The translations under genes were made by a program, and so were the position numbers. The notes below the pieces were generated by a model. That model worked only from the letters and a program-made list of their open reading frames with translations, was not told the origin of the DNA and ran no database searches. This document shows, piece after piece, positions 4,346 to 63,650 of a stretch of DNA of 64,000 nucleotides; positions within the stretch are counted from its first letter, which is position 1, and every line of letters begins with the position of its first letter. The DNA is from Caprella mutica. Taxonomy: Eukaryota > Arthropoda > Malacostraca > Amphipoda > Caprellidae. The stretch spans positions 1-64,000 of the forward strand of contig CANNZV010002625.1 in NCBI GenBank assembly GCA_947561585.1, written 5' to 3'.

Positions 4346-4582
4346 AGGCAATATTGGGACATCATTGGCAATATTGGGACATCATTGGCAATATTGGGAC
4401 ATCATTGGCAATATTTGGACAACATTGGCATTATTGTAACAACATTGGCAATATTGGGACAGCATTGGCAATACTGGGAAAACATTGGCAATATTGGGAC
4501 AACATTGGCAATATTGTGACAACATTGGCAATATTGGGACAACATTGGCAATATTGGGACAGCATTGGCAATATTGGGACAA
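4346..4582. repeat. 20-bp minisatellite array (block 2)
   Basis: About 12 copies of the same unit as block 1 (attgggacaacattggcaat, with acatc/acagc variants), in the same orientation, 2.3 kb downstream of block 1. Confidence 0.93.
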
Positions 4583-5029
4583 CAACACTAATTGTCAGGA
4601 GCAAGAGATGAGAAGGCTGTACTATGATATATCAATTCATAATATATTGTATCTGACATATATTGTCATACTACCGTAACCTCTAAATGTAGTCATCTGC
4701 AATTTTGATGATTTCGAGTCCTGAGTAATTAATTCCTATCAGATAATTAGGTATGCACGAGTGAAACTGTGGATGTACCAATAATTTGTAATGAGGACTG
4801 TCATAGACAGCGTTCGATTAATTATATTTGGTGTTGTTGCATAAATAATAAATATAAACACTGTGGTAATAAATTAATATTGACATTACAGCAGAAACCA
4901 AAAGTTAGTAATAATATATAGAGTTAAATTATTATTCGAGTTTGGAGAGTGTTGTTTGTATTAATGAATAATTTATATTATTTTAGCATAGGGTTGCTAG
5001 GCAGTTTCTTGATAATGGGATGTTATTTA
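4583..5029. other. No gene seen
   Basis: AT-rich DNA without a supported feature, ending at the left edge of the Helitron-like element. Confidence 0.45.
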
Positions 5030-12015: not shown

Positions 12016-14815
12016 TGTAACAGGAAACTACAAACAGAGGGTAAATTAAATACTTGATTCTTTGATAATAATATATTAATAAATCTTATCATAGATTATC
12101 TGCAAGTACAACACCTAAGTTAATTATTAATAATAGATAAGGTACATATGGTCAAGTTTGTACGTCAGACTATTGGAGACAATACTGTGAGTTTAAACTC
12201 AGTCATAAATCACAGAAAAGGGGAAAGTAGAGAGAATAAGAGGAAGGCTGTAACTAAGACCTGTTGGTTAATCACTGATTTTTAACGTAAATCTGTGCGT
12301 CCATCCAATCAATAATCACAGAAAAGGGAAAATGTAGGCTCGATCTCAATCGAGTACTACTAGAGGGTAAAGGTAAGGTGAAGAAGGTTCAATCTCGATT
12401 AAACTCTCCAAGAGGGTGAAGGTAAGATGAAGGTTCAATCTCGATTAAACTCTCCAAGAGGGTAAAGGGAAGATGAAGGTTCAATCTCGATTAAACTCTT
12501 CAAGAGGGTAAAGGGAAGATGAAGGTTCAATCTCGATTAAACTCTTCAAGAGGGTAAAGTGAAGATGAAGGTGGTTCAATCTCGATTAAACTCTTCAAGA
12601 GGGTAAAGGGAAGATGAAGGTTCAATCTCGATTAAACTCTTCAAGAGGGTAAAGGGAAGATGAAGGTTCAATCTCGATTAAACTCTTCAAGAGGGTAAAG
12701 GGAAGATGAAGGTTCAATCTCGATTAAGCTCTTCAAGAGGGTAAAGGGAAGATGAAGGTTCAATCTCGATTAAACTCTTCAAGAGGGTAAAGGGAAGATG
12801 AAGGTTCAATCTCGATTAAACTCTTCAAGAGGGTAAAGGGAAGATGAAGGTTCAATCTCGATTAAACTCTTCAAGAGGGTAAAGGGAAGATGAAGGTTCA
12901 ATCTCGATTAAACTCTTCAAGAGGGTAAAGGGAAGATGAAGGTTCAATCTCGATTAAACTCTTCAAGAGGGGAAGGGAAGATGAAGGTTCAATCTCGATT
13001 AAACTCTTCAAGAGGGTAAAGGGAAGATGAAGGTTCAATCTCGATTAAACTCTTCAAGAGGGTAAAGGGAAGATGAAGGTTCAATCTCGATTAAACTCTT
13101 CAAGAGGGGAAGGGAAAGAATGCTTCGAGTCCAATTACCAATGAGGGATAAGTATTCAGACTTATTATCCTTCTTTTAACCAATTGCCATGAGGTGTAAG
13201 ATCTCAATCTTATTTTCCTCCTTTGAGCAAATTTCCTTTGAGGGATAAGTATTTCAACTTATTTTCCTGAATTTAGATTTCAAAATCTGGACGGATATCC
13301 TATTCAGACTGTGAAGAATTAATGAGATTACATCTCATTTTAATAAAATCCTAATTACATATATAATAATCAAAGACATATTTTATTACAATGAACATCT
13401 ATGATGTAACACTAAAATAAATAATAAATACACAAAAAATAACATATATGATATAAATAAACGATATAAGACATTTGAAAACAAATTTCATGGGTAACTA
13501 CTCTATTTACTTGGTTTATCTTTTTCATATTGCATCAAAGAATTTCGGGGTAAATATTGCCTAACAGGTGATATGAGTACTTACAAAAATATAATGAAAT
13601 ATATAACAATATTCTTAGATATATTATCACATGTAAAGGGTATTCTAAGTCATTATAAATAGTTAAATAGCATTTAACTGATGCACAGAATAAACCTAGC
13701 ATTTTTACTAAAAACTTCCAATTACAAACAAGATGATTAATTTTTATACATTACATTTAATCTAAAGACTTAATACAAGTTTATGAAACCTAAAATAAAT
13801 ATCTTCAGTGACATACATTTTAATAGTTTTTATAATAGTTAATGAACTTTTCTGTGATTAAGGGTCGTAATTCCTTGTATCTAAAGGAATGTGCTTTAGT
13901 TAAGCTAATGACTAGAAAATAATAGAAAACAACATACAATTTAATCAGACAAGTAATAGAAATATAAATAGGTTAAATTTAGAAGGCATCTAATTATGCA
14001 AATGGTTTTAGTAAGGCAATAGTTAATATTATTTACATAATTCCACTGAATGTTCTCACCTCTTGAACTGACGCTGGCTTGTTAGGGATTATTGCCAGAT
14101 TCACAATATTTTAATAGTTATATTTAAATAGAAACTTATACTAGTTTTTGAGGTTCATAATTTAATCGAAAGATTAATAAATGCATATCTAAGTTTTTGA
14201 ATATAAAAATAGATAAATTAGTTACGTATGAAAGAAATTATTAATGATTGAAGTTAGTTACAATAATTTGTGCGTTCGTGCGTGTTTTGTTCTAACAGTT
14301 GTTAGAACAAGCATCAGATTAAAATTAGGAGTTAAAAATCTACATTAACATGTTTTAAATGTATAAAAAATAACAATATTAATATATGTAATATATAACC
14401 TGTATATATATTTATTCAATAAACAATAATTCACTATCTTAACTACCTTCTCAACGGCGGGGGAAAGATAGCTGCGCACAAAAGGTGCGCATGAAATCGA
14501 ATGGTCTTTGAAGCTAATAATATGGTCTATATTATGTATATCAGCTTGTTATGAAACATTTATTATGAGATATAGTTCATATATTAATTTTACAGTAGTT
14601 TTACATATTGTGATAGATTGAAAAATGATTATTGACGATATAAAGAAGTAATTTGTTAGGAGTGATTGAAGCATAATAATTAGTTGATTGGTTTGGTGTG
14701 TTCAGTCATTTTTAGTCTAGTGTTTTATCAGGGTAACTTCGATATTTTCAAAATATGTTATTTCATGTTGCAAACAAACAAAAAAAAATAGGTGGAGAAT
14801 TTGACGTCCGTTACA
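12016..14815 (-). repeat. 3' LTR (element orientation), 2,800 bp
   Basis: Begins tgtaacaggaaactacaaac and ends ttgacgtccgttaca. It contains a 46-bp array at about 12,345-13,110. In element orientation the LTR begins TGTAACGGACGTC. It differs from the other LTR at 12955, 13136 and 14168 in the positions I could compare by eye. Confidence 0.95.
12345..13112. repeat. 46-bp array inside the 3' LTR
   Basis: About 16 copies. Each holds ggttcaatctcgattaaac, then tcttcaagagggtaaaggg, then aagatgaa. One unit carries a 3-bp insertion (near 12,573), and two units have gggg in place of gggtaaa. The motif ggttcaatctc resembles a tRNA B-box (one mismatch to GGTTCRANYCY). Confidence 0.95.
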
Positions 14816-16880: not shown

Positions 16881-19680
16881 TGTAACAGGAAACTACAAAC
16901 AGAGGGTAAATTAAATACTTGATTCTTTGATAATAATATATTAATAAATCTTATCATAGATTATCTGCAAGTACAACACCTAAGTTAATTATTAATAATA
17001 GATAAGGTACATATGGTCAAGTTTGTACGTCAGACTATTGGAGACAATACTGTGAGTTTAAACTCAGTCATAAATCACAGAAAAGGGGAAAGTAGAGAGA
17101 ATAAGAGGAAGGCTGTAACTAAGACCTGTTGGTTAATCACTGATTTTTAACGTAAATCTGTGCGTCCATCCAATCAATAATCACAGAAAAGGGAAAATGT
17201 AGGCTCGATCTCAATCGAGTACTACTAGAGGGTAAAGGTAAGGTGAAGAAGGTTCAATCTCGATTAAACTCTCCAAGAGGGTGAAGGTAAGATGAAGGTT
17301 CAATCTCGATTAAACTCTCCAAGAGGGTAAAGGGAAGATGAAGGTTCAATCTCGATTAAACTCTTCAAGAGGGTAAAGGGAAGATGAAGGTTCAATCTCG
17401 ATTAAACTCTTCAAGAGGGTAAAGTGAAGATGAAGGTGGTTCAATCTCGATTAAACTCTTCAAGAGGGTAAAGGGAAGATGAAGGTTCAATCTCGATTAA
17501 ACTCTTCAAGAGGGTAAAGGGAAGATGAAGGTTCAATCTCGATTAAACTCTTCAAGAGGGTAAAGGGAAGATGAAGGTTCAATCTCGATTAAGCTCTTCA
17601 AGAGGGTAAAGGGAAGATGAAGGTTCAATCTCGATTAAACTCTTCAAGAGGGTAAAGGGAAGATGAAGGTTCAATCTCGATTAAACTCTTCAAGAGGGTA
17701 AAGGGAAGATGAAGGTTCAATCTCGATTAAACTCTTCAAGAGGGTAAAGGGAAGATGAAGGTTCAATCTCGATTAAACTCTTCAAGAGGGTAAAGGGAAG
17801 ATGAAGGTTCAATCTCGATAAAACTCTTCAAGAGGGGAAGGGAAGATGAAGGTTCAATCTCGATTAAACTCTTCAAGAGGGTAAAGGGAAGATGAAGGTT
17901 CAATCTCGATTAAACTCTTCAAGAGGGTAAAGGGAAGATGAAGGTTCAATCTCGATTAAACTCTTCAAGAGGGGAAGGGAAAGAATGCTTCGAGTCCAAT
18001 AACCAATGAGGGATAAGTATTCAGACTTATTATCCTTCTTTTAACCAATTGCCATGAGGTGTAAGATCTCAATCTTATTTTCCTCCTTTGAGCAAATTTC
18101 CTTTGAGGGATAAGTATTTCAACTTATTTTCCTGAATTTAGATTTCAAAATCTGGACGGATATCCTATTCAGACTGTGAAGAATTAATGAGATTACATCT
18201 CATTTTAATAAAATCCTAATTACATATATAATAATCAAAGACATATTTTATTACAATGAACATCTATGATGTAACACTAAAATAAATAATAAATACACAA
18301 AAAATAACATATATGATATAAATAAACGATATAAGACATTTGAAAACAAATTTCATGGGTAACTACTCTATTTACTTGGTTTATCTTTTTCATATTGCAT
18401 CAAAGAATTTCGGGGTAAATATTGCCTAACAGGTGATATGAGTACTTACAAAAATATAATGAAATATATAACAATATTCTTAGATATATTATCACATGTA
18501 AAGGGTATTCTAAGTCATTATAAATAGTTAAATAGCATTTAACTGATGCACAGAATAAACCTAGCATTTTTACTAAAAACTTCCAATTACAAACAAGATG
18601 ATTAATTTTTATACATTACATTTAATCTAAAGACTTAATACAAGTTTATGAAACCTAAAATAAATATCTTCAGTGACATACATTTTAATAGTTTTTATAA
18701 TAGTTAATGAACTTTTCTGTGATTAAGGGTCGTAATTCCTTGTATCTAAAGGAATGTGCTTTAGTTAAGCTAATGACTAGAAAATAATAGAAAACAACAT
18801 ACAATTTAATCAGACAAGTAATAGAAATATAAATAGGTTAAATTTAGAAGGCATCTAATTATGCAAATGGTTTTAGTAAGGCAATAGTTAATATTATTTA
18901 CATAATTCCACTGAATGTTCTCACCTCTTGAACTGACGCTGGCTTGTTAGGGATTATTGCCAGATTCACAATATTTTAATAGTTATATTTAAATAGAAAC
19001 TTATACTAGTTTTTGAGGTTCATAATTTAATCAAAAGATTAATAAATGCATATCTAAGTTTTTGAATATAAAAATAGATAAATTAGTTACGTATGAAAGA
19101 AATTATTAATGATTGAAGTTAGTTACAATAATTTGTGCGTTCGTGCGTGTTTTGTTCTAACAGTTGTTAGAACAAGCATCAGATTAAAATTAGGAGTTAA
19201 AAATCTACATTAACATGTTTTAAATGTATAAAAAATAACAATATTAATATATGTAATATATAACCTGTATATATATTTATTCAATAAACAATAATTCACT
19301 ATCTTAACTACCTTCTCAACGGCGGGGGAAAGATAGCTGCGCACAAAAGGTGCGCATGAAATCGAATGGTCTTTGAAGCTAATAATATGGTCTATATTAT
19401 GTATATCAGCTTGTTATGAAACATTTATTATGAGATATAGTTCATATATTAATTTTACAGTAGTTTTACATATTGTGATAGATTGAAAAATGATTATTGA
19501 CGATATAAAGAAGTAATTTGTTAGGAGTGATTGAAGCATAATAATTAGTTGATTGGTTTGGTGTGTTCAGTCATTTTTAGTCTAGTGTTTTATCAGGGTA
19601 ACTTCGATATTTTCAAAATATGTTATTTCATGTTGCAAACAAACAAAAAAAAATAGGTGGAGAATTTGACGTCCGTTACA
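16881..19680 (-). repeat. 5' LTR (element orientation), 2,800 bp
   Basis: Near-identical to 12016-14815 at a constant offset of 4,865 bp. Differences seen at 17820, 18001 and 19033. It would drive transcription of the gag gene on the minus strand; no core promoter could be fixed by eye. Confidence 0.95.
17210..17977. repeat. 46-bp array inside the 5' LTR
   Basis: Same copy number and order of variants as the array in the other LTR, including the 3-bp insertion unit, as expected when both LTRs were made from one template at insertion. Confidence 0.95.
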
Positions 19681-38639: not shown

Positions 38640-41110
38640 TAAATATTATTTGGATATGCTAACGGTTGAATTTGATGTGCTTGTCATCACAGAAACTAGA
38701 ATTTTTTAAGAGGTTTCGAAATGCTTTAAGAAAAAATAATCATAGTGGCATTGAATTTGGTGATTTGAATATATTTGAAGAAGCTTGTGACTCTATCGAT
38801 ACGTGAATGGATATTGTACTGTAAAGATAAAAAGATAATTGGTTTTAATAAAAATATAATGAACATTTTGAATAACCCTCATTGCGAGAAGAGGAAATTA
38901 TGGACATGAACTTGATTGATTATTATGATTCTAGTATCATTGGAAGAAAGGTTTCTTAATATGCCATCACAGAATTACATCTCTATTATCTGTAAATCAA
39001 CTAGATTCACTCGTGCTGTCCAACAAAATCACCCATCCCTTCTGGAGCATATATGGTACAATAAAACAAAAGTAAATTAATCTTCATACTTAATATTTTT
39101 AATTCTGATCATTTAACAAAATTCATATTAATGGAATATTCAACTGCGAGTTTCCAAAATTTTGTCCAGATACAATTTCGTGATCATTCTTCGGATAATG
39201 TAAAACTTTTTTCCAATTAATGCGCCAGGTGGAAGGAGAACTCTTCTAAAAACATTGTTGATGAAAGCACTAATTAATTCACTGTAACTGTTATTTACTT
39301 AAATTTAATTTAAATGTTTTCTCATTAAGACTAAATTCATCACGCAACAAAAAATGTGTATACATTGGTTCAATTCTACAATTCTGGAGGCTAGAAGAAG
39401 ATAGACATATTTTTATAAACGATTTAAAAAAAACATTTCATTCAATGTTATATCAAAAGATTTAAAAATGATTTCACTTAAACAATTTTTTTAATTTACA
39501 CTATCAAATACACGGTGTAATTGAAAAAAAAATTAACTTAAAACAATCTTTCAAATCAAAAACCACACAATCAATTAGTTATCAAATATTTATATTGCTA
39601 TTTTACTAATATTGCTAGTAAATTCAAATCGGATAGCTTTCCTTCGATCAATGATCCGATTTGTAATATGTGTTTTCACATTTTCGATTCATTCTTAAGC
39701 CTGTTTCTCAATTACTATTTCTAACAATTTAAAATATTCTAGCTATGGGTTATAAGAAATACCCACCAAGATATTTAAAATGAAAATATTGCAACTCTTC
39801 CTACCTTTACATTTACTCATTAATGATACAATATTAACTAGAGTGTTCCTAACATCTTAGAGAGAGCTGTAAATTATTGTCTGGTCCTGAATGTAATTGG
39901 CCAATCTCTATTGTACCCTTAATAGGTAGAATATTTGGAAAATGTATTCATTATATGTACTTAATTCTTATTTGCCAACGTTCAATGTAATTAGTAGTAA
40001 CCAGTTTAATTCCAAAAGTGTATAGGTACAACTAATGCTTTTCAAAACTTTGTTGATCATATTAATCATGAATTTAATTCTAAGAAGAATATTTTTGGAA
40101 TTTCTATAGACCTAATAAAGGCTTCCATACGGTTAGTTACGAATTATATCTAAAGGAGCTTCATAGGTACCTAATACAGGATATTTGTCATAATCACTTC
40201 CATAACTATCTTGAGGATCGTTCTCAGGGTCTACGATTGGGCAGAGCTATTTTTATAACTCAAAATTTGATTTATGGTATACCTCAGGGAAGTGTACTCG
40301 GTTCACTACTTTACAACCTCTTCATTAACGATTTAGTCAATATTTCTCAAAATATTAATGTATCTCTTTTTTTGCAGACGATAACAATGTGGCATTCCGT
40401 GACACTTACTATGAATCTTTAGTGAGAAATACAAACTAATATCTTTTTAAATTATCTGTGTAGAGATTACAAATAAACTTTGTCTTAATACAAATAAAAT
40501 GAAAAGAGCTGTCATTCACAAACAGTTCTTCAGCCTTTTTATACCCTTCATTTTGAATTTTGAAAATAACAAATGAAGATCCATAGCTGTGTGAAGTTTT
40601 TTGTGTGAATTTGGATTAAAGGTTAAATTTCTCACCTTCTATTCATTATGTTTGTACAGAAATATCCAAAGCTACTGGAATTGTAGTTTATAAATCTTCA
40701 CCTTGCAATTATTGATTAATTTGTCCTGTACTTTAATTTACCCATAATTTATTTTTTTGTTTGGAGGGAGAAAAATATCACAAATATAATTTATAGTTTA
40801 CGTAAACGTGCTCATACTGACTCTCTATTTAAAAAAAATACCTATCAATGATATCTGTCAAACTATCTACTGAAATACATATGTTTCTAATACAAAATTC
40901 AATCTACTCATCCTACTTGACATAACTACATACTAAAAGAAGTAAAAATATCGATGCTACATTCCCTAGTCTAACTCAATATGAAAGTTTGTTGATTTCC
41001 GGGGGCCCCTCATTTGGAATTCTATACCACTACCAATTCGCGAGAAAAATAAAGGTCTATTTTAAACGGAAATACAAAGGACACTTGGTGGCTGCTCTAT
41101 CGTAATGCAG
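38640..41110 (+). pseudogene. Heavily decayed second non-LTR retrotransposon
   Basis: Fragments of endonuclease and reverse transcriptase appear in the right order but in different frames with many stops: FDVLVITETRIF (about 38,670; endonuclease TE motif), GDLN near 38,760, FTRAVQQNHPSLLEHIWYN (about 39,005-39,065), SKAF-like DLIKAFHTV (about 40,110), GIPQGSVLGSLLYNLFINDL (40276-40335; RT PQG box), a frame-shifted ADD box at about 40,376, and a tail that ends KVYFKRKYKGHLVAALS (41053-41104). It is much older than the element at 6.9-10.6 kb and not obviously the same family. Confidence 0.75.
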
Positions 41111-44847: not shown

Positions 44848-45245
44848 AACAATATTCATAGGGACAATATTTTCACAATGTTGTAACAATATTTACAGGG
44901 ACAATATTTTCACAATGTTGTAACAATATTGGGATAGTGTTGCCCAGTTATTATTACAAAAATGTTGAAAGAATATTGGCGGAACATTGTCACAATATTA
45001 TAACAATATTGGCAATGATGTAACAACATTGACAATGTTGTTACAACATTAACAATGTTGCAAATATTGGGAGCAATATTGTAACAATATTGGAGCAATG
45101 TTGTTACAACATTGGGGGTCACATTGTCCCAATATTGCAACAATTTGGAAAAAGATTTCCCCAATGTTGTGACAATATTGGGGCAATGTTGTGACAATAT
45201 TGAGACAATGTTGTGACAATATTGAGGCAATGATGTCGCAATATA
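44848..45245. repeat. CAATATTG/CAATGTTG minisatellite (block 3), degenerate
   Basis: Imperfect ~20-22-bp units such as acaatattggggcaatgttg, acaatgttgtaacaatattg and variants. It shares the palindrome caatattg and the caacattg/caatgttg element with the blocks at 1, 4.3, 47.0 and 63.2 kb. Confidence 0.85.
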
Positions 45246-46880: not shown

Positions 46881-47009
46881 GTTTAAACGCATATGTTCAA
46901 CTGTAAATCGTGAACATATCGTGAACATATCTAGTTCGTAAATCGTGAATTGAATAAAAATATATTTAGAATGAAAATTTAATTAATATTTAACAATGTT
47001 TCTTGGTGC

Positions 47010-47468
47010 AACATTGTCCCAATATTGTTACAACATTTTCCTAATATTGTTACAACATTGTCCCAATATTGTTACAACATTGTCCCAATATTGTTACAAC
47101 ATTGTCCCAATATTGTCCCAATATTGTTACAATATTGTCCCAATATTGTTACAATATTGTCCCAATATTGTTACAATATTGTCCCAATATTGTTACAACA
47201 TTGTCCCAATATTGGTACAACATTGTCCCAATATTGTTACAACATTGTGCCAATATTGTTACAACATTGTCCCAATATTGTTACAACAATGTCCCAATAT
47301 TGTTACAACATTGTCCCAATATTGTTACAACATTGTCCAATATTGTTACAACATTGTCCCAATATTGTTACAACATTGTCCCAATATTGTTACAACATTG
47401 TCCCAATATTGTCCCAATATTATTACAACATTGTCCCAATATTGTTAGAAGATTGTGACAATGCTGTA
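47010..47468. repeat. 22-bp minisatellite (block 4), interrupted by a MITE
   Basis: About 20 copies built from caatattgttacaacattg plus tcc. Some units lack a half-repeat. The array resumes for a few bases after the CACTG element (taacaacatttcccaatatt), so the MITE inserted into it. Confidence 0.95.
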
Positions 47469-48616: not shown

Positions 48617-48660
48617 TCATCTGTGGAAATGCCATGACCCCATAGTGCCTACGCAGCGTC
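48617..48660 (-). CDS. bili: bili-like gene, last coding exon
   Basis: The acceptor tttgtttcag is followed by 14 codons ending GSWHFHR and TGA. The split glycine codon joins the preceding exon's GATG end. Confidence 0.65.
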
Positions 48661-51600
48661 CTGAAACAAACACGCTGTTAGATGACGCACTAAATAAAAA
48701 GATAACACAATGAGATAAAAAGATAACGGAATGAGATAAAAAGATAACACAATGAGATAAAAAGATAACGGAATGAGATAAAGTATAACGCACTGTGGGA
48801 GCTTAAGCGACAAGATACACGACATACAAAAACTGTTCCACTAGAGTTAAATATTCAATAGACTTAGGCCCCTTTCATACTAGCGTTTTTTTTCATGCCA
48901 CATCAAATGTATTGGTTCGTGGAGGAACGCTACGACTGGTTAAGCGTATGTGTTTTGTATGATTGGGCGTTTTTCATGCTAGATTTTTGTAGAAAAAATC
49001 GCCTCGTGTGAAATAGGGCTCAGTACTTTCCACCAAGTATTGCAAACTAGATATCAAACATGTATCTCTGTCATACAGAGTTCAGAATGAAAGTTAAATT
49101 AAACAAAAAGGACGTCAGGAAATCCTAATCTTAAATATTCCTCTATTTTCTGCAGTCTTAGGAGCTTCAATCTTATGCAGAAAACTATTGAATAGCTAGC
49201 TAATCAATCACCAGAATGAGTTGAACTACAATAACTGGAGAAAGATATGTGCACCAAATACCTAAAATTTGTTGGAATATTATTCTACGAAAATAAAATA
49301 ATGTTATGAATGTGTAACTATGATCTTCATGGATGAGTTATTTTAAGATTCCATTTTGTTCTGATTTTTGGATCAAGAAGAAGTAGTTCGGTGGTATAAG
49401 AAAACTAGAAGAATGACCTGAATTAGGATTTTACCACAAAATCCCTAGTATTCCATAAATATTCTTTGAGAGTATTTATTAAAACATATTTTACAGAGCT
49501 GTAGCTGTTCAATTTCATTTACTGCTTAATTAACTGACAAAGAGGTTCGAAGGGTAGCATGTTTCCTGTTACAAATATATTAGAGTGTATTAATATACCC
49601 ATCACTTAAATTTGTCAACGAAAAGTCAGGTAAGTTGGTAACCCAGCATTCAGATGTTAAGTCTACGGAACACACTCACCATCTTCCGTGAATGTAGCGA
49701 GACAAAGCTTCTCCAGTTTGTTACTCAAAGTGGACCCAGGCACTTCTTTTCTCGACACTGTAGCCAATGGAACTAACACGTCTGTAAAAATAGATAGGGT
49801 TAGATGAGAGAAAAATATAAATTATCAGCATGAAAATTTTGTATGATACAACAATAATCAAGTACTAAATTGTTTATAATGAATTGATTAATCAAGCTTA
49901 TGATAATAGGTTTCCAGCGAACTCTATTTCTTTAACTATAAATTCTCAATTCACATCTGTTGTGACGGGAGATTTACAAAAATGGCATTTCCAAATTCAA
50001 AATTGAATTAGAGAAACCTATCTGGAATAACGTTAAAGGTCCTTTCTACGATTAATTTAAATTTGTAGAGCTAAGGTTATGTAACACATTACAGTTAACA
50101 GAAAAGAACCTGATCAGGTATTCGCTTCGAAATTAATTATAGTATAACAAATATTCAAACTGAACCTTCACTGCCTGTCACTGTAATAGGTTAAATAAAG
50201 GAACACGAAAGCCTTACAAATTATATCTCGTATTTTCGTATATTTGATGGTTATTACTTGTTAGGTAATTTTAGGTACTAATGATTTTTAGTGTAGAGGA
50301 ATTTAGGCTATGGTATGGCTAACTTCTTATGATATAACTATCAGCCTTGTTATCGTTTGGAATCAATCAGAAGTAACCCTTTCTGTTTCTTTGTTTAGTT
50401 AGTTTAGAAAGACGGAGGGTAATGCAAAACCCATCCAAATAACTTAAATTAAATATTATAATAACCGTATAGAACTAAATTTGAAAAGGTTTGCAGTTTT
50501 AAAATCAGAACCTTGGCTCTAATGAATAGAGTAATAAAAAATCTGTAAAATGGAGGGGACTTTTATCACTACTAATTAGACTGCTCGAAACTCAATCGAT
50601 CGAAAAACAAGTGCTCGAACGAATAATTGTTCGGATGAACAATTACTCGAAGGTTAAGTTAGATTAGAATAAACTGTTATTGTTTATTCGAGCAATTGTT
50701 TTGAACAACTGCTTTCAAAAATTGTCTTTCGAGCAATTTACCTAGAACCGGTTTGGACAGATACCAGTTCTTTCTTTACTGGATTAATATTATCGAAAAT
50801 ATATAAGCTATTCCTTCTACATTATTTGATTTATTTCATTAACATATTTGAATAATTCGAATATCATTTATGTAATGAATATAATATATGAGAAATTAGT
50901 GAATTTTTGTCAATTATTTAGTCTCGTTTCGACCAATTAAAAGAAGTTATACTATTTGAAGGGCAACTAAGGTAAAGAATAAATTAGTAATTTTCCTGGA
51001 TAGATTTTTATATTTCATGTTCATTGACGATCAAAATAGCTTTTTGTTAATTACACATTAATTTCATTATTTTTAATTCATTTTTTATATATTAAGAATT
51101 TATAAAGATATTTTTCTAGCTACTTCTTGTCGTGAAAAATATGTTAAATAAGAAAATTAGAACCATTAATTGGGTGAAAGATTTGACTTAAGAGAATGTA
51201 TCCTTTCATTTAAATATAAGTTATGATAAACCTGATGATAAATAATAATTGATGATAAAAATGATCTCTTCAAAACTCTGGTATTTTATACGAAATGAAC
51301 GCTTTAAAAAAATTTAGATTAAATTTAAGTAGGTAAATATTACATACAACAATGATGAAGCTTGTTTTTTTATTTTGAAAATTGTATTAATTTCACGTAA
51401 TTATTGATAGCGACAGTGAATGGAAGTTATTTAATTATATTGAAAAATGTATCGATATATTTTAATTATAAGATAAAACTCAATATCAACCATATATGTA
51501 TATTACAAAATCTATTTTCAAAATATTATGGAAAATTATTATATCTTTTTTCTCTTTGAAAATTATTAAATGAAGTTCCTGTACAATGTAAATGTATTCC

Positions 51601-54600
51601 TATTTAATTTATTATGTTTTTTTTTCTTATATTTGATTTAAAATTATAAAGATGCAATACATTTGTTCATGTAAGCTGTTGTTTAACATAACACTTAGAG
51701 AAAATAATCCAGTAGCCCATAGATTATCTTTAACAGCATTGTAAGTAGGTACATATTCATACCTATATTACATATTTAAGAAATATATTGAATAAACTAT
51801 ATAGATTAACTGTCGTTAGTGAGGTAAATTGTTTCGTTTGAACAGTTCAGGAGTTCACAATTTATTACTAATAATTAGGGTTGTGACATTTTGTAAGAAA
51901 ATATGCTCTAAAATTATAAATTCCATGTAATCCTAAGCGTGATATGAAAAATATTGTGGAGAACCCTTCTAGTTTAGCGATAGGAAGTTCCAATACCCTA
52001 AATTTTGATGTTGCTTATAACATTCATGGAGTTTATAGTTTTAAGAGCATATTTTTACAAAAAAGTCACAACCCTGCTAATAATACACTAGTTACCCCTG
52101 CAATAAATTTTCTCTTAAAATAATACACCTACAATGTTTAAAGGTGAAGTTAGATATCTTCCTTTCAATTTATCATATAATGTAACTATATGCTGAATGA
52201 AATAAGGATATGACGATATAATTATCATTGAATTGCAAAATATTTGAGTTCGTTATATTTTAGTAATATTCATTAAGACGAAATCTATAGACAAAGCATT
52301 CATGTCGCCTAGTTGTTGTTCATGGAAAAGCTATCTATTTTGTTTCATTTCTTACTTTGGATGCGGAAACGCATAGTAATATACTTAGGAAGTTTAATTC
52401 TCAAACTACTGTCTTAAAATTATTAGTATTTAGTATTTAATACTCAGTCTCAATAAACAAGTTTGAGGTAGAAAGTGATGTAAACAAATTGAGGTTTATG
52501 GCCCAGGTTTCTGAAACCAACTTTATAGATTATAATTACAGTAGAAATCCTATAAAATAAATGAGTTAGGATGTAGGTACCCCGTAAAGTGAACAAATTT
52601 TCTTCAGTCTGCCATAAAATAGCCATCAGTTTTCTAAAACTTATGTTTCTAGACTTTTTTTTATCGCAGACTAAAGAAAATTTTGTTCACTTTACGGGGT
52701 ACATTCTAACCTATTAACTATAGAGGAGTTCTACTGCACTCGAGAATGTAATTTAGGTGGTGATTAGTTTTTCTCACCATCGGCTTCAGTTGCCTGGTCC
52801 ATCATATGGCCCTCCAAATCATCAGGGTACAGCGCTGCCCTTCTCTTGATGTCCTCAACGAAACTGTTTATAAGGGCATCCATCATTACGGCCTGAAAGA
52901 TAGGAATAGAGTAAGACTTCATGATGAAGAGAATACAGTTCTCTTTAAAAGATAATATCAGTTCTTCGAAGTAAAAATAGTTTTTTTTCAGTTTTAAAGA
53001 TAATACCTGCACTGAAAAAAATTGTGAGTCAACCTGACTCGTCGCTTGAGTCAAGGCTGGTAAAACTCGAATAATTGAGTCTTTTTTATTGATTGACTCT
53101 ACCTGAGTCAATCTGACTATGAATTAGGAGTCAAAATGACTCTTGTTTTTGAGTAAAGTATTAGGATGAGTCAAATTGACTCACATTTTTGAGCTGGTTT
53201 TGGGACAAACTGAAAACTCAAATTTAGATTCAATTTGACTCGTATGTTTTCTTCAGTGAGTTCTGTGACATAAAATTATTAAATTCCTTACTAAATATAG
53301 TTTCGATAGTTTCTTCAAAATGAGTACGGAGGTATTCATTTTTAAATCAGAATCACAAGTGAAATTTGGTATCTTTTGAAGAGATAAATCATCAATTGCT
53401 TGCTTATTTTTAGTATTTACCTGTTTAGAGAATATCTGCAGTACTTTAGAGTATCTCCGCACACCTTCTACTACTGCAAACTGCACGAAAAGGCAGGGCA
53501 TGGAATCTGAAGACCAATCGGTTGACGGTTGTGCGTATTCCCAGGAAAGCTCGTCATACCGGAGAGATAAAAGTATATTCTACGGAAAAAAAGTCATTGT
53601 GAAACACTGAATTAGACAATTCATAATTATATAAAATATTGCTGGATGGAATTACAGTTAGCACTTTCAGTCACGGTATAACTTTTATATATTTTTTGTA
53701 GTTTTGATAGTCGAACTACGTTACTACGATGGTTGTAAATAGACTCTAGACAAAATATTATTGCTGACTCAACATTTATATATGAGGCGGTTAGTCAGAC
53801 TGGCCACGTACTTTCATGCGGAAACAATGATTACACGCTAATTATGTACATGATATCGCTTGTTTGCAACAACAACATCGTATACACAAAAACATGTATT
53901 TTAGAGTAATCTATATAGACATATAAATCATAAAATGCTGATCATTTTGGTAAAAAGATCATCATTGTAACTCAAAAATATACCGCTAGAAAGACTAAAT
54001 GTCCTAACGATATACCATTAAATGTACGTACATTACAAGTACTAAAATGCCTCTCCTGAAAAATAGCTTTTTTGAAGTTATGACACTGTTCTCGCAAACA
54101 AGTGATATATGGACCCCATTGCATCACTTTACTAGCTGATTAAGTCAAGAGTGAACTGTGCATATTTTTTAATTAGGTAATCCTAGTAAGAGCGGTGACT
54201 GGAGGGTTTAAATAATTTCATTCACTTTTGTGCAACTATTCACTGGCACAAATTATTCGCAATTGTGTAGTAATTCTGTTCTTAATGGTCACTCACCGAC
54301 TGACTTGGGTCAATGACCGTCAAACCCGCCCCGTTGATGGCGATAATGACCGGTAGGTCAGGTCTTGGTAGCCAGAGGGTCATTCCCCGTCTCGGAACCT
54401 CTATTTGACCGTGAAAAAAAGCACTCCTGAAAGGTTAGAAGATGAAAAGTAAATATTTTCAAACATGTTAGTACCCCTCTGTAATGAAATTCTGTTTAGT
54501 GAATGTGTGTCCTGAGTAAGAACGTAGCCTCTATAGTGAACAAATTTCAATCACTAAACAGGACTTCTTTATAGAGGAGTTCTACTGTAGTTATAGTTAA

Positions 54601-57600
54601 TAACAATTCTATTTATCAAAATATTTTATTGAAAAAGATACAATCTATTACATTTAATTTTATTTGAAATACAGGGTTTCTGAATTAGTTCTTTTCTAAT
54701 TTGTATCTCCAATTAAATTTACCCCAAAAAAGGTGTTGCATAGGAGTCACTGAAATTGTTCCAAACCAATCATGTCAAACTTGCGATTTTTTATGACAAT
54801 AATTTTCAATTAAAAACAAAAATTCTCTCTCCGAAACTCACCCATAGTACGGAAAAGCCCAGAAAAACTCACCCATAGTACGGCAATGTCCAGCAAAACT
54901 CACCCATAGTACGGCAAAGTCCAGCAAAACTCACCCATAGTACAGCAAAGTCCAGCAAAATTCACCCATAGTACGATAAAGTCCAGCAAAACTCACCCAT
55001 AGTTCAGTAAAGTCCAGTAAAACTCACCCATAGTACAGCAAAGTCCAGTAAAACTCACCCATAGTACGGTAAAGTCCAGTAAAACTCACCCATAGTACGG
55101 CAAAGTCCAGTAAACCTCACCCATAGTACGGCATAGTCCGGCAAAACTCACCCATAGTACGGCAAAGTCCAGTAAAACTCACCCATAGTACGGCAAAGTC
55201 TAGCTAAACTCATCCATAGTACGGCAAAGTGCAGCAAAACTCACCCATAGTACGGCAAAGTCTGGAAAAACTCACCCATAGTACGGCAAAGACCAGAAAA
55301 ACTCACCCATAGTACGGCAATGTCCAGCAAAACTCACCCATAGTACGGCAAAGTCCAGCAAAACTCACCCATAGTACGGCAAAGTCCAGCAAAACTCTTC
55401 CATAGTACAGCAAAGTCCAGCAAAATTCACCCATTGTACGGTAAAGTCCAGTAAAACTCACCCGTAGTACGGCAAAGTCCAGTAAAACTCACCCGTAGTA
55501 CGGCAAAGTCCAGTAAAACTCACCCGTAGTACGGTAAAGTCCAGTAAAACTCACCCGTAGTACGGCAAAGTCCAGTAAAACTCACCCGTAGTACGGCAAA
55601 GTCCAGTAAAACTCACCCGTAGTACGGCAAAGTCCAGTAAAACTCACCCGTAGTACGGCAAAGTCCAGTAAAACTCACCCGTAGTACGGCAAAGTCCAGT
55701 AAAACTCACCCATAGTACGGCAAAGTCCAGCAAAACTCCAGGTATTTCCTAGCCAGTTTTCGACACTGCACGTTGTTGGGTATCGACCGGTACTGCTCAA
55801 TAATCCTAATTTCGGGGCAGCTCTTGCTGCTAAAACTAATCAGATCAGCGAGTTTTAACCGACACACGTTATCTGGGAGGTAATCTAGTAGACGACGTCT
55901 GAAAATTAGAAAGCGGAGTGTTAGAGAGAATTGAAATTGAAATGAATTGGTTTGAGTTTAAATGCAAGGAAAGAATTACTTCGTGAAATAAACTGTCCAA
56001 TGTATGTAAATAAATAAAGTTAGTCAAAGGCTTAAACAAGCTCTAAGTACAAAATAATTAGTTAGTGTTGTGAATAAAAGTTGGTGAAGATCATTAAAAA
56101 GTTTGATAATTAAGATGATGCCTGACAGAAGTATCATTGTTATCAATTTTGTTATTGTTTCATGTGTTTCATCATGGCAATAATAACTAGGAACTCATCC
56201 TAATGATATCTTCGAGAAACCTTTGATATTTTGAAACATAATTGTACCTTTAGACACTTAATGGCAAAATTAAAAACTTAATTTTATCTCTATCCATTAA
56301 AACGTATTGATAATTTTGAAAACCTATTGACTTTTTCGAAAGCCTAAATGACATTCGCAAAATCCTATGTGACATTTTGAAATCTTAGATTACATTTTGA
56401 AGCTTATATTACATTTTCGAAAGCTTAGATTACATTTTCGAAAGCTTATATTACATTTTCGAAAGCTTAGATTACATTTTCGAAAGCTCGGATTACATTT
56501 TCGAAAGCTTAGATCACATTTTCGAAAGCTTAGATTACATTTTCGAAAGCTTAGATTACATTTTCGAAAGCTTAGATTACATTTTCGAAAGCTTAGATTA
56601 CATTTTCGAAAGCTTAGATTACATTTTCGAAAGCTTAGATTACATTTTCGAAAGCTTAGATTACATTTTCGAAAGCTTAGATTACATTTTCGAAAGCTTA
56701 GATTACATTTTCGAAAGCTTAGATTACATTTTTGAAAGCTTAGATTACATTTTAGAAAGCTTAGATTACATTTTCGAAAGCCTAATGACGTTTTAAAAAT
56801 CCTAAATGACATTTTTGAAACTTCAATGATATTTTCGTAAACCCATAAAGCCTTTCAACAGCCTAAATAACAATATTTCAAATACCCATTCCCCCACCCC
56901 TCACCGAAAGAAAGAAGGCGTGTGCGTGTTGTGATCGTAAGGCCCCAACTCCAGTCTCGCCTGAATCCCAGCCAACATTTCGTTGTCGGAAGACTCGCAG
57001 GGGTACCTCGCCGTGAGCAGGTTCCACTTTGCCTCTTCGTAGAGAAGTTCTAAAATTTTACAGTCTCTGCAATGAAAAGTGATGTTAGTATGAAAAAACA
57101 ACCATCTTAATGCTCTAAAAAATGATAGTCTTAATGACTGTGATAAGGGTGACCGGTCCTTTCGCCGAAAACCCTATCGTCGATAACCATTTCGCCGAAA
57201 ACAACTTCGCCGCATGACACGTTCGCCGAATGACACTTCTGCCGAAAATTTAAAAAAAAAACAGTATACGTTATAAATATAAAGAGATATAGTCCATCTA
57301 AGGTTAGGTTAGCGGTCCGATTGGAAGGGAAGTGTCGTTCGGCGAATGTGTTTTCGGCGAAAGGACCTATAAAACCGATCAAGACCGGTTTTGATTATTC
57401 TAATTTCTGTATCTTCAAATATTTCATTGTACGTATTTAGAAAAATATTGGAGATTAAATTCGAGTGACATAAAAGTTTTACCTCCAATCATTTTTGTGA
57501 AATTAGTAGGGTTGTGACAATATGTTTTTATAATCCTATAGATCCGAAGACGATCATAGAAATAAAATGGTATCGAATACTCTATTCCGCTGGTGTAGAA

Positions 57601-59649
57601 GAACGATTCATACAGTTTAATTCTCTCCGTCTATAATATTTTCGGGATCTATGATTTTAAAAGCATATTGTCCCAACCCTAGTACATACTAAGAATTTGT
57701 AAGCATTGACGCTGATTCAAACCTCTTGTGCATAATGACAATCAATTCTTTATCTGCATTTAATAACACAGTCAAAAAAAGTATAATCACCCATTGATGA
57801 AAAAAAAATCTTCTATCCATGACGATATTTGATTTGACTAAAATGTTATCGCTATTTATCATTGATTTAAAACACTCATAGTTTATCTTTTTCGCAAAAA
57901 TATCAACAATTTTCTCTAAAATTGTGGTATTTTAAAGGAAACCGGGATAAGGTGAGCAGATTCGAGAAAAATAGATCCTGTAAATTTTCCGATTGGGATT
58001 GATTCTTACCTAATTTTGACCTCATCCCTCTTGGTGAAGAATATGTTCCTCCTAAGGACTATCTTAGGCTCATGAGCCAATCTCTCGTCTTTAGAAGTTA
58101 GAGGCGTCTGACCAAACCTTCTGAGCATATCCGCCCAGTGCTTTCTCACTTCGAGGGGCCTGTGGAATGGTTTCAGTTGAATCTCTGAAAAAGAACGTAG
58201 TGGTCAGACGACAATGAGAAAAAGTGTGCATTGATTGCATTGTAGTAAAAGGGAATAATGTTATAAATAATTCTTTCTCTATGTGTGAACAGAAAAATGT
58301 AATTGAAGAAGAATCATCATGGATATTTATGATTGCATTGCGGATTAGGACCCTCTTAAAGTTAAAAATGAAATTATTGAGTATATTAAACTCACCCCAA
58401 TTGGTCGGATATTAATATTTGTTATACAGATTAGTACTCTTTTAAAGTTAAGAATTCCAATTATTGAACTCACCCAATAAAGGACAAACCATCCAGATGG
58501 CGAAAACCTCCATAGCTTGTTTCGGAAGGTTCATCTCCTCCTCTTCTATGATCAGAGCCAACATTTCTCTGGCCGTGACTCTCATGCCATCCTCTAGTCT
58601 GAACCTGATGGCTAGTCTAGAGTGTAGGTAAACGCAGGCATCAACCGTACTGCCGATACTTTTGTTGTTAGAGCAGCTGTTGTTGTTGCTGATGTTGGAA
58701 TTGCTGTTTGGAGAAGTGCCGTTTGTTGACCCTCCAACTGAAAACAGAATTTGATAATTCTTAGCTATGAGTGTAGTTACTACACCGAAAAGTTCATTTT
58801 TACTATGCGGGCTTCTGTCTTATGAATAAAAATGAAAATGAGCGTAGGCTCAAACAAGTTTCAAGCCACTACTTATTTTCAAAAATATATTTCTCAATTT
58901 GTTATGCAACAATATTAAAATGGAGTATACTTATATGTGAGTATACTTTCAGATTATGAGGAATTATTGTTTATGAATATATTTCCACTACCATTTTCTA
59001 CATCTCTTCACTTTACAATTAAAAATATTCTTAGTTTTTATATATGATGTCAATGATTTTTTCTGACAGCTGAAAATATATATTAATGAGTTTGTTTGTT
59101 TCCCTGTAATCACATTACGAGAATAAAGTGATAAGAAAATGTCTATCTGATATTATATCACCTGTTCAAGACAGTTTCTATTATCTTTTCTCACCTTTAG
59201 TTTTCCTGTCGATGTCAGGCTTGATTTTCTTCTCCAAGACTTCCTGATCCTGGTGATGGCCCCCAGTTGGAGGCACATGACTGATGATGGATGAAGATGA
59301 GGTGGGGGGTATACTGTGTCCGTGTGGGGGTCCGTGATCATGCTGTGTCGCACTGTGTGGGGGAGTGTGCGTGTGGGACATGTGGGGTGTATGCGGCCGC
59401 CTTTGGAGAGTTTGCGTCATATGGGGGCCCGGTGGTTGTTGATGGGGAACCATGCCCCCGTGTGGATGATTGCCCTTATCGATGGATGTGTCTATGCCCA
59501 TTGGTGTGACTTCGAACCCCATAGGGGCTAGGCCGGGGTAGTACATTGGAGAGGAGGAGTTGGAAGATGTTTTATCTAGGTGATCGGCACTCCCCTTGTA
59601 GTCCTTCGCTCTCAGGAAATCAGCTGTCGCTCTCTCGCGGAGAAATTCC
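48617..59649 (-). CDS. bili: FERM-domain protein, FRMD8/bili family (10 exons, N-terminus missing)
   Basis: Exons in transcription order: 59195-59649, 58474-58737, 58010-58184, 56905-57066, 55710-55898, 54297-54426, 53421-53579, 52778-52892, 49680-49781, 48617-48660. All internal boundaries are AG/GT, every junction keeps the frame, and the joined product is about 597 residues ending in TGA. A low-complexity Ser/Pro/His-rich N-terminal part precedes a FERM domain: F1 with VFAIWMVCPLLE, F2 with QLKPFHRPLEVRKHW, LYEEAKWNLLTARYPC and LELGPYD, and F3 with LPYYGSAFFHGQIE and LSLRYDELSWEY; then an IFSKQAVMMDALINSF helix. These blocks and their order fit FRMD8/Bili. Family knowledge: Drosophila Bili binds the Wnt co-receptor Arrow/LRP6 and dampens Wnt signalling; FRMD8 binds iRhoms and stabilises ADAM17. 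No promoter or start codon is in view; the frame is open to the first acceptor, so at least one 5' exon lies further upstream. Confidence 0.82.
48690..48790. repeat. 21-bp tandem repeat in the last intron
   Basis: About four to five copies of gataacacaatgagataaaaa, alternating with gataacggaatgagataaa. Confidence 0.85.
48866..49021. mobile_element. MITE with GCGTTTTTT-type inverted ends, copy 2
   Basis: The left end aggcccctttcatactagcg and the complement of the right end (agccctatttcacacgaggcg) match each other and the ends of 38384-38585. It lies in the last intron of the bili-like gene. Confidence 0.6.
49680..49781 (-). CDS. bili: bili-like gene, ninth visible exon
   Basis: Encodes DVLVPLATVSRKEVPGS then KLEKLCLATFTED. 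Acceptor tttttacag, donor GATG|gtgagtg. It lies after the FERM domain. Confidence 0.75.
49782..51867. other. Large intron of the bili-like gene
   Basis: Intronic AT-rich DNA. Around 50,590-50,750 there are imperfect inverted motifs (tgctcgaacg, ttgttcg, ttcgagcaattgt) that may be an old MITE. No other feature. Confidence 0.5.
51876..52076. mobile_element. hAT-type MITE, copy 2, with perfect 8-bp target duplication
   Basis: Ends tagggttgtgac / gtcacaaccctg with ctaataat on both sides (51868-51875 and 52077-52084). The 8-bp duplication and the YAGGGTTG-type ends are characteristic of hAT elements. It sits in an intron of the bili-like gene. Confidence 0.85.
52539..52736. mobile_element. pogo/Tigger-like MITE, copy 1
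   Basis: The left end cagtagaaatcctata pairs with the complement of the right end (cagtagaactcctctata). Inside, taccccgtaaagtgaac and its complement form a second nearly perfect arm around 52,580-52,705. CAGTAGAAC-type ends recall pogo/Tigger families. It lies just downstream of the 52778 exon, in the intron. Confidence 0.6.
52778..52892 (-). CDS. bili: bili-like gene, eighth visible exon
   Basis: Encodes AVMMDALINSFVEDIKRR then YPDDLEGHMMDQATEAD. The donor GATG|gtgagaa is chosen over read-through, which would stop four codons later (GEKN). Confidence 0.8.
53010..53258. mobile_element. CACTGAAAAA MITE, copy 2
   Basis: Same ends and interior as 47469-47714, with about 90 percent agreement by eye. 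It lies in an intron of the bili-like gene. TA duplication is not preserved here. Confidence 0.78.
53421..53579 (-). CDS. bili: bili-like gene, seventh visible exon
   Basis: 53 whole codons: NILLSLRYDELSWEYAQPS .. CLFVQFAVVEGVRRYSK .. IFSKQ. This is the end of the FERM F3 lobe. Confidence 0.88.
53856..54105. mobile_element. 250-bp MITE, copy 2 (TCGYTCATTTGC family)
   Basis: Same length and internal blocks as 11401-11650. The ends tcgcttgtttgc and gcaaacaagtga are inverted. It lies in an intron of the bili-like gene. Confidence 0.65.
54297..54426 (-). CDS. bili: bili-like gene, sixth visible exon
   Basis: Encodes SAFFHGQIEVPRRGMTLW, then RPDLPVIIAINGAGLTVIDP. Its first base completes the glycine of LPYYG from the previous exon. 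Confidence 0.88.
54470..54587. mobile_element. pogo/Tigger-like MITE, copy 2 (short)
   Basis: tagtacccctctgtaatgaa..ctgtttagtga pairs with the complement of the right part (..tcactaaacaggac..atagaggagttctactg). It shares the ctatagaggagttctactg end with 52539-52736. Confidence 0.5.
54838..55709 (-). repeat. 31-bp array of exon-end plus 5' splice-site units
   Basis: About 28 tandem copies. On the minus strand each unit reads ttttgctggactttgccg then tactatggGTGAG (or tactacggGTGAG for a run of nine units near 55,460-55,690). The same sequence forms the last ~30 bases of the preceding exon and its donor, so the array starts within coding sequence and each unit recreates a donor-like GG|GTGAGT. 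In the exon frame the bases after TATGGG are TGA, so use of any later donor would add an immediate stop. Confidence 0.95.
55710..55898 (-). CDS. bili: bili-like gene, fifth visible exon
   Basis: Encodes RRLLDYLPDNVCRLKLADLI, then CPEIRIIEQYRSIPNNVQC, then LARKYLEFCWTLPYYG. Acceptor attttcag|ACG. The donor chosen here is the copy nearest the exon body, the only one that avoids the in-frame TGA. Confidence 0.88.
56395..56795. repeat. 21-bp tandem repeat in an intron
   Basis: About 19 copies of ttttcgaaagcttagattaca, most with an aagctt hexamer. Open frames on both strands (RKCNLSF, LHFRKLR) are array translation. The flanking 55,899-56,394 is ordinary intronic AT-rich DNA. Confidence 0.97.
56905..57066 (-). 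CDS. bili: bili-like gene, fourth visible exon
   Basis: Encodes DCKILELLYEEAKWNLLTAR, YPCESSDNEMLAGIQARLEL, GPYDHNTHTPSFFR; FERM F2 lobe. Donor TTTCG|gtgagg. Confidence 0.88.
57155..57367. mobile_element. Palindromic element with TTCGCCGAAA motifs
   Basis: The ends ggtcctttcgccgaaaa and ttttcggcgaaaggacc are exact complements. Several further ttcgccgaa motifs lie in the left half, with ttcggcgaa in the right. About 213 bp, in an intron of the bili-like gene. Confidence 0.75.
57507..57681. mobile_element. hAT-type MITE, copy 3
   Basis: The ends tagggttgtgacaatatg and catattgtcccaaccct pair, and the interior matches copy 1 (aaatggtatcgaatac, ccgctggtgtagaa). No clear 8-bp duplication. It lies in an intron of the bili-like gene. 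Confidence 0.7.
58010..58184 (-). CDS. bili: bili-like gene, third visible exon
   Basis: Encodes IQLKPFHRPLEVRKHWADML, then ERLAHEPKIVLRRNIFFTKR; start of F2. Donor ATTAG|gtaagaa. Confidence 0.88.
58474..58737 (-). CDS. bili: bili-like gene, second visible exon
   Basis: A Ser/Asn-rich run (STNGTSPNSNSNISNNN) then F1: DACVYLHSRLAIRFRLEDGM, EEEEMNLPKQAMEVFAIWMV, CPLL. Donor TTGG|gtgagtt. Confidence 0.88.
58738..59194. other. Intron of the bili-like gene
   Basis: AT-rich, no further feature seen. Confidence 0.6.
59195..59649 (-). CDS. bili: bili-like gene, first visible exon (low-complexity N-terminal region)
   Basis: Frame open from acceptor gattgcag: EFLRERATADFLRAKDYKGS .. MYYPGLAPMGFEVTPMG, then a His/Pro/Thr-rich stretch (HTPHMSHTHTPPHSATQHDH) and EVLEKKIKPDIDRKTK. 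An internal Met (59546) could serve as an alternative start, but the open frame and good acceptor upstream argue for earlier coding exons. It is clearly GC-richer than the introns. Confidence 0.78.
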
Positions 59650-62098: not shown

Positions 62099-63160
62099 TA
62101 TATACATAATTAATAATTTGGAGTAGAGTTTTAAGTTTTATAATTTGTATTTCCATCAAATAGTATTTGTATCTTTAATAAATATTGCAGTTCTCTTTTC
62201 ACAGAGCTGCTTCCACCATTTTACATTTTCGTTTGGGTAACATAATGAGGGTTGGTAATTAGATGATTTGTTTAGTTTCCTTATTTAATATTGGAACTGT
62301 TGAACACTGAAAAAAGATCAATTGGTCATTACTTTGAATACACTAAATATAAAGCAGAGTAAAGTAACCAGTGACCAAACGAGTATCTAATGCCGAATAC
62401 TTATTTATAAATATTGTAACAATTAAATTATATTTTTGGTAAATAGCAAAATAATTTGGATCCATTATAACCAAACCTATTTTTTGTCACCACGCATCAC
62501 TACCATTCCTTTTTCTGGGTGTTTGACTCTAATCCAGCAATGTTTCATAGTGCGGATTAGGATTCGTTTGGATACTTCTAAAATTTGAGATAATCACAGA
62601 TATTAATTTATCGTTAATAGATGACTACATTAACGATATCTGTCACACTGTGAAACCTATTACGCAACAGCTTTCTAAAATGAATTCCGTGAACTTAATT
62701 TGACTAAAACAATATATATTTAAAAATAGTATTTATTCGTTTTCAAAATTCAACAGTATATTGTGTTTCATTTCAGAAAAAGCTGCTCACAATTACAATT
62801 AAATTTAAAAGAAAATACTCATAAAAAGCTCCAACTAATCAATATTCTATTCGATACAATATCACAAAGGATTTTGCAATAATTAGAATAATTGTCACTG
62901 CAGTCGCACAAATTCAACTAAATTAATCAAACGATTATATAATATTAAACAGACTTCGTACTGCACTAATATGCATGCAACGTCACTCCAAATGAAAATA
63001 ATAATATAGTCAGTTATAAAATACTTTCTTTGATCCTTTGTTCGAAGAAACACAATATTGTAAGGGTATAATTATAAAATTTTAACTTCGGGACATGTCT
63101 CACACTTATTACTGAATTATCTAAAGTGTGAGTTATATGATTTTATAACAAGAACGGGGT
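62099..63160. other. No gene seen
   Basis: AT-rich intergenic DNA. I looked for an upstream minus-strand bili-like exon and found none I could support. Confidence 0.4.
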
Positions 63161-63162
63161 AC

Positions 63163-63562
63163 TGTTGTAACAATATTGAGACAATGTTGTAATAGTATTG
63201 GGGCAATGTTGTAACAATATTGGGGCAATGTTGTAACAATATTGGGGCAATGTTGTAACTATATTGGGGCAATGTTGTAACAATATTGGGGCAATGTTGT
63301 AACAGTATTGGGGCAATGTTATAATAGTATTGGGGCAATGTTGTAACAATATTGGGGCAATGTTGTAACAATATTGGGGCAATGTTATAATAGTATTGGG
63401 GGCAATGTTGTAACAATATTGGGGCAATGTTTTAATAGTATTGGGGCAATGTTGTAACAATATTGGGGCAATGTTGTAACAGTATTGGGGCAATGTAGTA
63501 ACAATATTGGGGCAATGTTGTAACAATATTGGGGCAATGTTGTAACAGTATTGGGGCAACGT
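63163..63562. repeat. 22-bp minisatellite (block 5)
   Basis: About 18 copies of ggggcaatgttgtaacaata plus tt; variants are taatagta and taacagta. It is the reverse-complement theme of block 4. Confidence 0.96.
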
Positions 63563-63650
63563 TACCACGAAAAAATGGTCCCTATGTAACAATTTCAGCA
63601 TCATATATTCATATCACATGTTATTTATTCATTTTTAGTGTTCTCTCCTG

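Follow-up and report, generated by a model that had tools for sequence, protein, structure and literature searches.

A minisatellite spanning an exon-intron boundary, with many intact copies of the 5' splice site, in an FRMD8-type FERM gene of the amphipod Caprella mutica

The gene and the array at its exon-intron boundary

The stretch of DNA analysed here (the window) comprises positions 1 to 64,000 of contig CANNZV010002625.1 of the amphipod Caprella mutica (assembly GCA_947561585.1), and it carries on its minus strand a FERM gene which, by its sequence, is of the FRMD8/Bili type. In this gene the end of one coding exon is repeated in tandem, along with its 5' splice site (donor), far into the following intron, and the boundary between exon and intron lies within the repeat, unit 1 being exonic and the units from 2 onward intronic. 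The features concerned are listed below; a slash marks a splice junction.

48617..59649, minus strand: the ten identified coding exons of the FRMD8/Bili gene, stop codon included
55710..55898, minus strand: exon of 189 nt, phase 2 at both ends, encoding ...RKYLEFCWTLPYYG, whose final 31 bp are unit 1 of the array (acceptor TTTTCAG/ACG, donor GG/GTGAGT, frame open with both neighbours, agreement with homologues)
55708..55709, minus strand: authentic exon-proximal GT donor, the sole place of 29 that keeps the frame; the border matches that in exon-skipping isoforms
55706..55708, minus strand: in-frame TGA that would be met by any transcript from a later donor; the open reading frame 55706..55957 ends there
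54842..55709, minus strand: intronic minisatellite of 28 units of 31 bp, 26 with GT and 23 with GGGTGAGT (Tandem Repeats Finder, TRF, and reading in register)
55462..55709, minus strand: units 2-9, nearly identical, with C at donor position -3; the youngest-looking block, with the strongest modelled U1 pairing
54827..54841, minus strand: distal edge of the array, GTGAGTTTCGGAGAG, presumed to be the original start of the intron; it has GAGTTT in common with exon positions 55738-55733
54297..54426, minus strand: the following exon (SAFFHGQIE...)

The spliced model of the gene, in which GT and AG are present at all joined junctions of the ten coding exons, reads as one open frame of 597 residues followed by TGA; the 5' end of the gene was not found in this model. 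A preliminary description of the locus, made from the DNA sequence alone, had recognised a FERM gene, and this is borne out by the Pfam FERM central domain (PF00373, 5.4e-15) and the KRIT1/FRMD8 C-lobe (PF24522, 1e-15), both above the cut-off, as well as by homologues named FRMD8. The best protein match among the matches listed is an unnamed protein of Hyalella azteca, another amphipod, with 86% identity across 94% of a 369-residue query; after it come decapod and insect proteins, many of them named FRMD8. In an alignment of 21 rows, identity is 71-76% for the isopod and decapod proteins and 45-49% for those of insects. By sequence, KRIT1 is the closest relative with a solved structure. The acceptor that had been placed at 54426 is correct, the frame staying open across the junction, and the spliced frame, the homologue alignment and the border in exon-skipping isoforms agree that the exon-proximal donor is the coding one. 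The length of the exon at 55710-55898 is a multiple of three with equal phases at its ends, and predicted isoforms from Periplaneta and from Halyomorpha leave out the homologous exon.

The array is reported by TRF at 54834-55738 (period 31, 29.2 copies, 92% matches, 0% indels, score 1439), and when read in register it consists of 29 units, viz. the exon's own unit 1 (55740-55710) and 28 intronic units (55709 to 54842, 868 bp). The earlier account of a 31-bp unit, made of the last ~30 coding bases (EFCWTLPYYG) and the donor and repeated over ~870 bp, thus holds; its start of the array at 54838 falls within the repeat, but four bases inside the TRF edge. The donor core is exactly GGGTGAGT in 24 of the 29 units (16 times after T and 8 times after C), the remaining five cores being GGGTGAAT (twice), GGGTGAGG, GGATGAGT and GGAAGAGT (once each), and GT is kept at 27 of the 29 places, having been lost in GGATGAGT and GGAAGAGT. 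The previous figure of about 28 extra donors is therefore right for donor places but slightly high for donors as such, since 26 of the 28 places beyond the real donor have GT and 23 have the exact core.

Because tandem arrays are often mis-sized, one may ask whether the array, or its copy number, is an artefact of assembly. It is seen in one assembly, and a DNA search of the genome with 54700-55000 returned this locus only, all nine places found (best candidates scored) lying inside the array. However, the window is without any N, the period is exactly 31 throughout with no indels in the TRF alignment, and the units differ from each other in an ordered way, with blocks and distinct edges. We regard an artefact of this kind as very unlikely.

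Derivation of the array from the exon

The repeated segment encodes EFCWTLPYYG, and none of the 21 rows of the alignment departs from it at W, L, P, the second Y or G. A loose pattern for ...W.LP.YG is matched by 114 of the 120 homologues listed (185 were found) and never occurs twice in one protein; the six that lack it are lepidopteran variants (P0106, P0108, P0112), exon-skipping isoforms (P0102, P0118) and a divergent prediction (P0109). In Periplaneta isoform X5 and Halyomorpha isoform X2 the residues FFR, or FF, are joined straight to the next exon, and these two isoforms, which skip this exon, show its borders to be old. Since the end of the exon lies in a highly conserved stretch of the family, the exon is the source of the array, as had been proposed, and not the reverse: the motif is found family-wide, it is single-copy in the homologues, and the exon borders are conserved. 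On these comparisons of sequence the array is derived from the exon, whose authentic copy remains coding and conserved. At the position where the exon encodes Thr, Hyalella has Ser, and the Thr codon is kept in 27 of the 29 units. An array that arose after the lineage had parted from Hyalella would be consistent with this, although homogenisation of the units could produce the pattern as well.

The ends of the array point to the manner in which it could have arisen. Its far end runs into GTGAGTTTCGGAGAGAG, and unit 1 in the exon starts at CTGGAGTTTTGC; the 6-bp microhomology GAGTTT is common to both (55738-55733 and 54839-54834). The two copies are now 899 bp, or 29 units, apart, so before the expansion they would have been separated by a single unit, and this microhomology between exon and donor is the likely seed. 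A slip or repair event between the exonic copy (codons Glu-Phe) and the copy at the donor (GTGAGTTT), then 31 bp apart, would have duplicated the end of the exon along with the donor, and further slippage and unequal exchange would have lengthened the array into the intron. Past exchange is also suggested by a block structure, in which units 13-14 equal units 27-28, unit 11 equals unit 26, and units 2-9 are almost identical; the units at the edges of the array stay distinct. Formation of a new intron within the array was considered and rejected: a simple pattern finds one acceptor-like site (TTTTTCCAG, in unit 16), and the frame and junctions of the gene model keep the old intron.

Minisatellites are abundant in the surrounding DNA. 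Arrays with a period of at least 10 and at least 3 copies account for 24.3% of the sequence in the window and for 22.0% in a sample of 210 kb. To this sample 20 contigs, picked non-randomly at regular intervals between numbers 36 and 720, contributed 10 kb each, and the contig of the window contributed the 10 kb that follow it. With ~22% of the sampled sequence being minisatellite, a seed on a splice site is to be expected now and then. By rough arithmetic from 28 TRF rows with at least 5 copies (some of them overlapping), ~19 splice sites, a 31-bp unit and 64 kb, about a quarter of a boundary hit would occur by chance per window, so that one such hit is unsurprising. The FRMD8 array is the only one with GGTRAGT in its TRF consensus among 22 sequences (274 kb including the window; arrays with a period of 12 or more and 2.5 copies or more).

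The share of minisatellites, which have many different units, is high as judged by eye. Two arrays elsewhere in the window (12362-13116 and 17227-17981) have the same 46-bp unit and the same copy number (16.3), lie ~4.9 kb apart and are each followed by a 48-bp repeat; they probably represent a local duplication. By eye, similar units (CAATATTG/CAACATTG) can be made out at 1-2011, 4347-4584, 44993-45244, 47009-47445 and 63156-63563, and at 40010-40422 plus-strand frames resembling, again by eye, a reverse transcriptase (GIPQGSVLGSLLYNLFINDL) are probably a degraded LINE (long interspersed nuclear element). The window gave no Rfam match at the gathering threshold.

Consequences for splicing and the choice of donor

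If the first donor place is used, the frame is kept; if any of places 2-29 is used, the protein ends in ...YLEFCWTLPYYG, with the stop directly after LPYYG and before the FERM C-lobe. The in-frame TGA that had been predicted for donors other than the first is thus found after YYG at all 28 later places, and with stops in 28 of 28 such products a coding use of the array is rejected. This stop precedes the altered junction by 27 nt where donor 2 is used and by 58 to 864 nt with any of donors 3-29, and four further junctions follow in the gene model. Transcripts with such upstream stops are generally expected to decay, and since the stop precedes the altered junction and four more junctions follow, decay of later-donor transcripts is expected here as well.

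Based on the above, we think it probable that a minisatellite was seeded on the exon-intron boundary and is most likely a tolerated passenger of the gene. The first donor, being the earliest to be transcribed and part of a defined exon, would normally be used, and any transcript from a later donor would carry the stop directly after LPYYG and should be degraded. Several observations, however, weigh against this interpretation. The units differ by 10% on average, yet 23 of the 28 extra donors are exact. In modelled pairing with the 5' end of U1, donor 1 scores -10.4 kcal/mol and donors 2-9 score -11.5, and of donors 10-29, 15 score -10.4 and the other five are weaker (-9.8 to -3.1); hence 23 of the 28 extra donors equal (15) or exceed (eight) the real one, the seven other FRMD8 donors tested lying between -8.1 and -10.4. 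With four settings tried, donor 1 comes 29th, 18th, 21st and 28th among the 29 places in predicted accessibility. Poor accessibility alone is not necessarily a bar to splicing, since the predictions show the FRMD8 donors at 54297 and 52778 as largely closed too (those at 59195, 58010 and 53421 are far more open). Nevertheless, in these models neither U1 pairing nor accessibility accounts for a win of the first donor, and exon definition and transcription order remain as the candidate reasons for its choice. In raw deviations the donor columns are the fourth lowest of 31 circular windows, ties counted. Lastly, silence of the later donors cannot be assumed, because downstream units of the human IFI6 minisatellite, described below, are used as donors.

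A rival reading is that the array controls FRMD8 by unproductive splicing, viz. that the downstream donors compete with the real one, the stop-bearing transcripts decay, and the amount of FRMD8 protein is set by the copy number. In its favour, all 28 alternatives lead to the same stop, 26 of them keep GT, and their modelled U1 pairing is on a par with that of the real donor in 15 cases and stronger in eight. That a minisatellite can supply working donors is seen in IFI6 (passages of PMC4526556), and in OGDH raised levels of SR proteins switch on intron-proximal cryptic donors, giving unproductive transcripts (passages of PMC9177970). However, the stop needs no selection, as it arises automatically where a phase-2 exon ending in GG precedes GTGAGT, and the amphioxus arrays considered below are reported, in parts of PMC3087553 and PMC3902484, as not disturbing regular splicing. 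The donor columns, moreover, are without clear protection: runs of change number 6 in the 8 donor columns versus 29 in the 23 other columns, so that the donor window comes 13th among the 31 circular windows, ties counted; with the raw deviations also considered, conservation in the donor columns does not clearly exceed that in the remaining ones. Neither this comparison nor modelled U1 pairing nor predicted accessibility gave a clear sign of selection for control of splicing or decay by array length, and from the sequence there is no sign so far that the array regulates FRMD8. Such control is in our view unlikely. Its more specific form, in which a heritable, copy-number-variable array of donors acts as a dial, each added unit being one more equal or better U1 site that leads to the stop, and array length would set FRMD8 and hence iRhom or Wnt signalling, we consider quite unlikely.

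Two other roles for the array RNA have less to recommend them. The self-complementary units (CCGUA/UACGG, GAGUUU/GGACUU) might pair with one another so that the array forms a long stem in which the extra donors are concealed, and the array RNA is predicted to fold far better than shuffled sequences (z -8.68, none of 20 shuffles as stable). This z-score overstates the case, since shuffling destroys the repeats, and the accessibility ranks given above indicate that the real donor is hidden equally; structure is thus rejected as a sufficient explanation, and even a partial role appears highly improbable. Independently of this question, the array RNA at 54835-55740 owes its strong self-complementarity to the near-palindromic sequence of the unit (CCGTA/TACGG). 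The second proposal invokes the role of U1 in guarding transcripts against premature polyadenylation: the array would gather U1 snRNP (small nuclear ribonucleoprotein) and shield the intron at downstream AATAAA or ATTAAA. Such hexamers are present at 54664 and 54630 (AATAAA) and 54658 (ATTAAA), all within ~210 nt of the last donor, but AT-rich introns would generally be expected to contain them by chance, and we give this shield hardly any credence.

Comparison with known boundary-spanning arrays

The interpretation preferred here, that of a tolerated minisatellite seeded on a splice boundary, places the FRMD8 array within a known kind, since amphioxus "mirages" and the human IFI6 minisatellite have already been described. 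According to the portions of PMC3087553 and PMC3902484 on which we draw, mirages are minisatellite-like tandem duplications of intron-exon boundaries, with many copies carrying splice signals, in Adh3 (units of 10-72 bp), the globins BflGb6 and BflGb9 (about 150-160 bp), PGBD5 and troponin C; length and somatic instability are reported, and regular splicing was, on the data of the authors, seemingly not interfered with, though they point out that the copies could act as cryptic sites. Distinct edge units, much as in the FRMD8 array, are described for the globin mirages (part of PMC3087553). As in amphioxus, the FRMD8 array spans the boundary, its units carry splice signals, and the authentic exon stays coding; unlike the amphioxus cases, it is found in an amphipod, has a 31-bp unit with 28 extra copies of the 5' splice site, and is known here from the DNA of one assembly. 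It appears, therefore, to be a crustacean mirage with many intact, stop-linked donors. A literature search brought up no minisatellite across such a boundary in crustaceans or any other arthropods, a result of little weight, as the search covered mostly freely readable papers at listing level.

The minisatellite of human IFI6 (also 6-16 or G1P3) has a unit of about 12 nt in about 26 copies, and its downstream donors extend the protein in frame. Passages of PMC4526556 describe it as supplying several donors, with two downstream repeat units used as such, and the title of a study cited there (Turri et al. 1995) concerns this minisatellite and splice donors. Both arrays are thus minisatellites holding multiple donors; however, in IFI6 the downstream donors encode different isoforms, whereas in FRMD8 the later donors all give the stop after LPYYG, with no in-frame extension. 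In the AGGT model of intron gain a tandem genomic duplication copies a splice signal (part of PMC3443670), and a local tandem duplication has done likewise here, except that no new intron is formed and an existing one merely grows.

What is distinctive in the present case is the number of intact competing donors, most of them equal or better in their match to U1, and the uniform stop. It thereby provides a natural experiment in splice-site choice, in which up to 26 donors, 23 of them with the same eight-base core as the real one, compete with it and the stop penalises a wrong choice. If the first donor proves to be used almost always, then position and transcription order would prevail over U1 strength. 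With this amphipod joining lancelets and human, it is suggested that minisatellite-rich genomes may hold more arrays of this kind.
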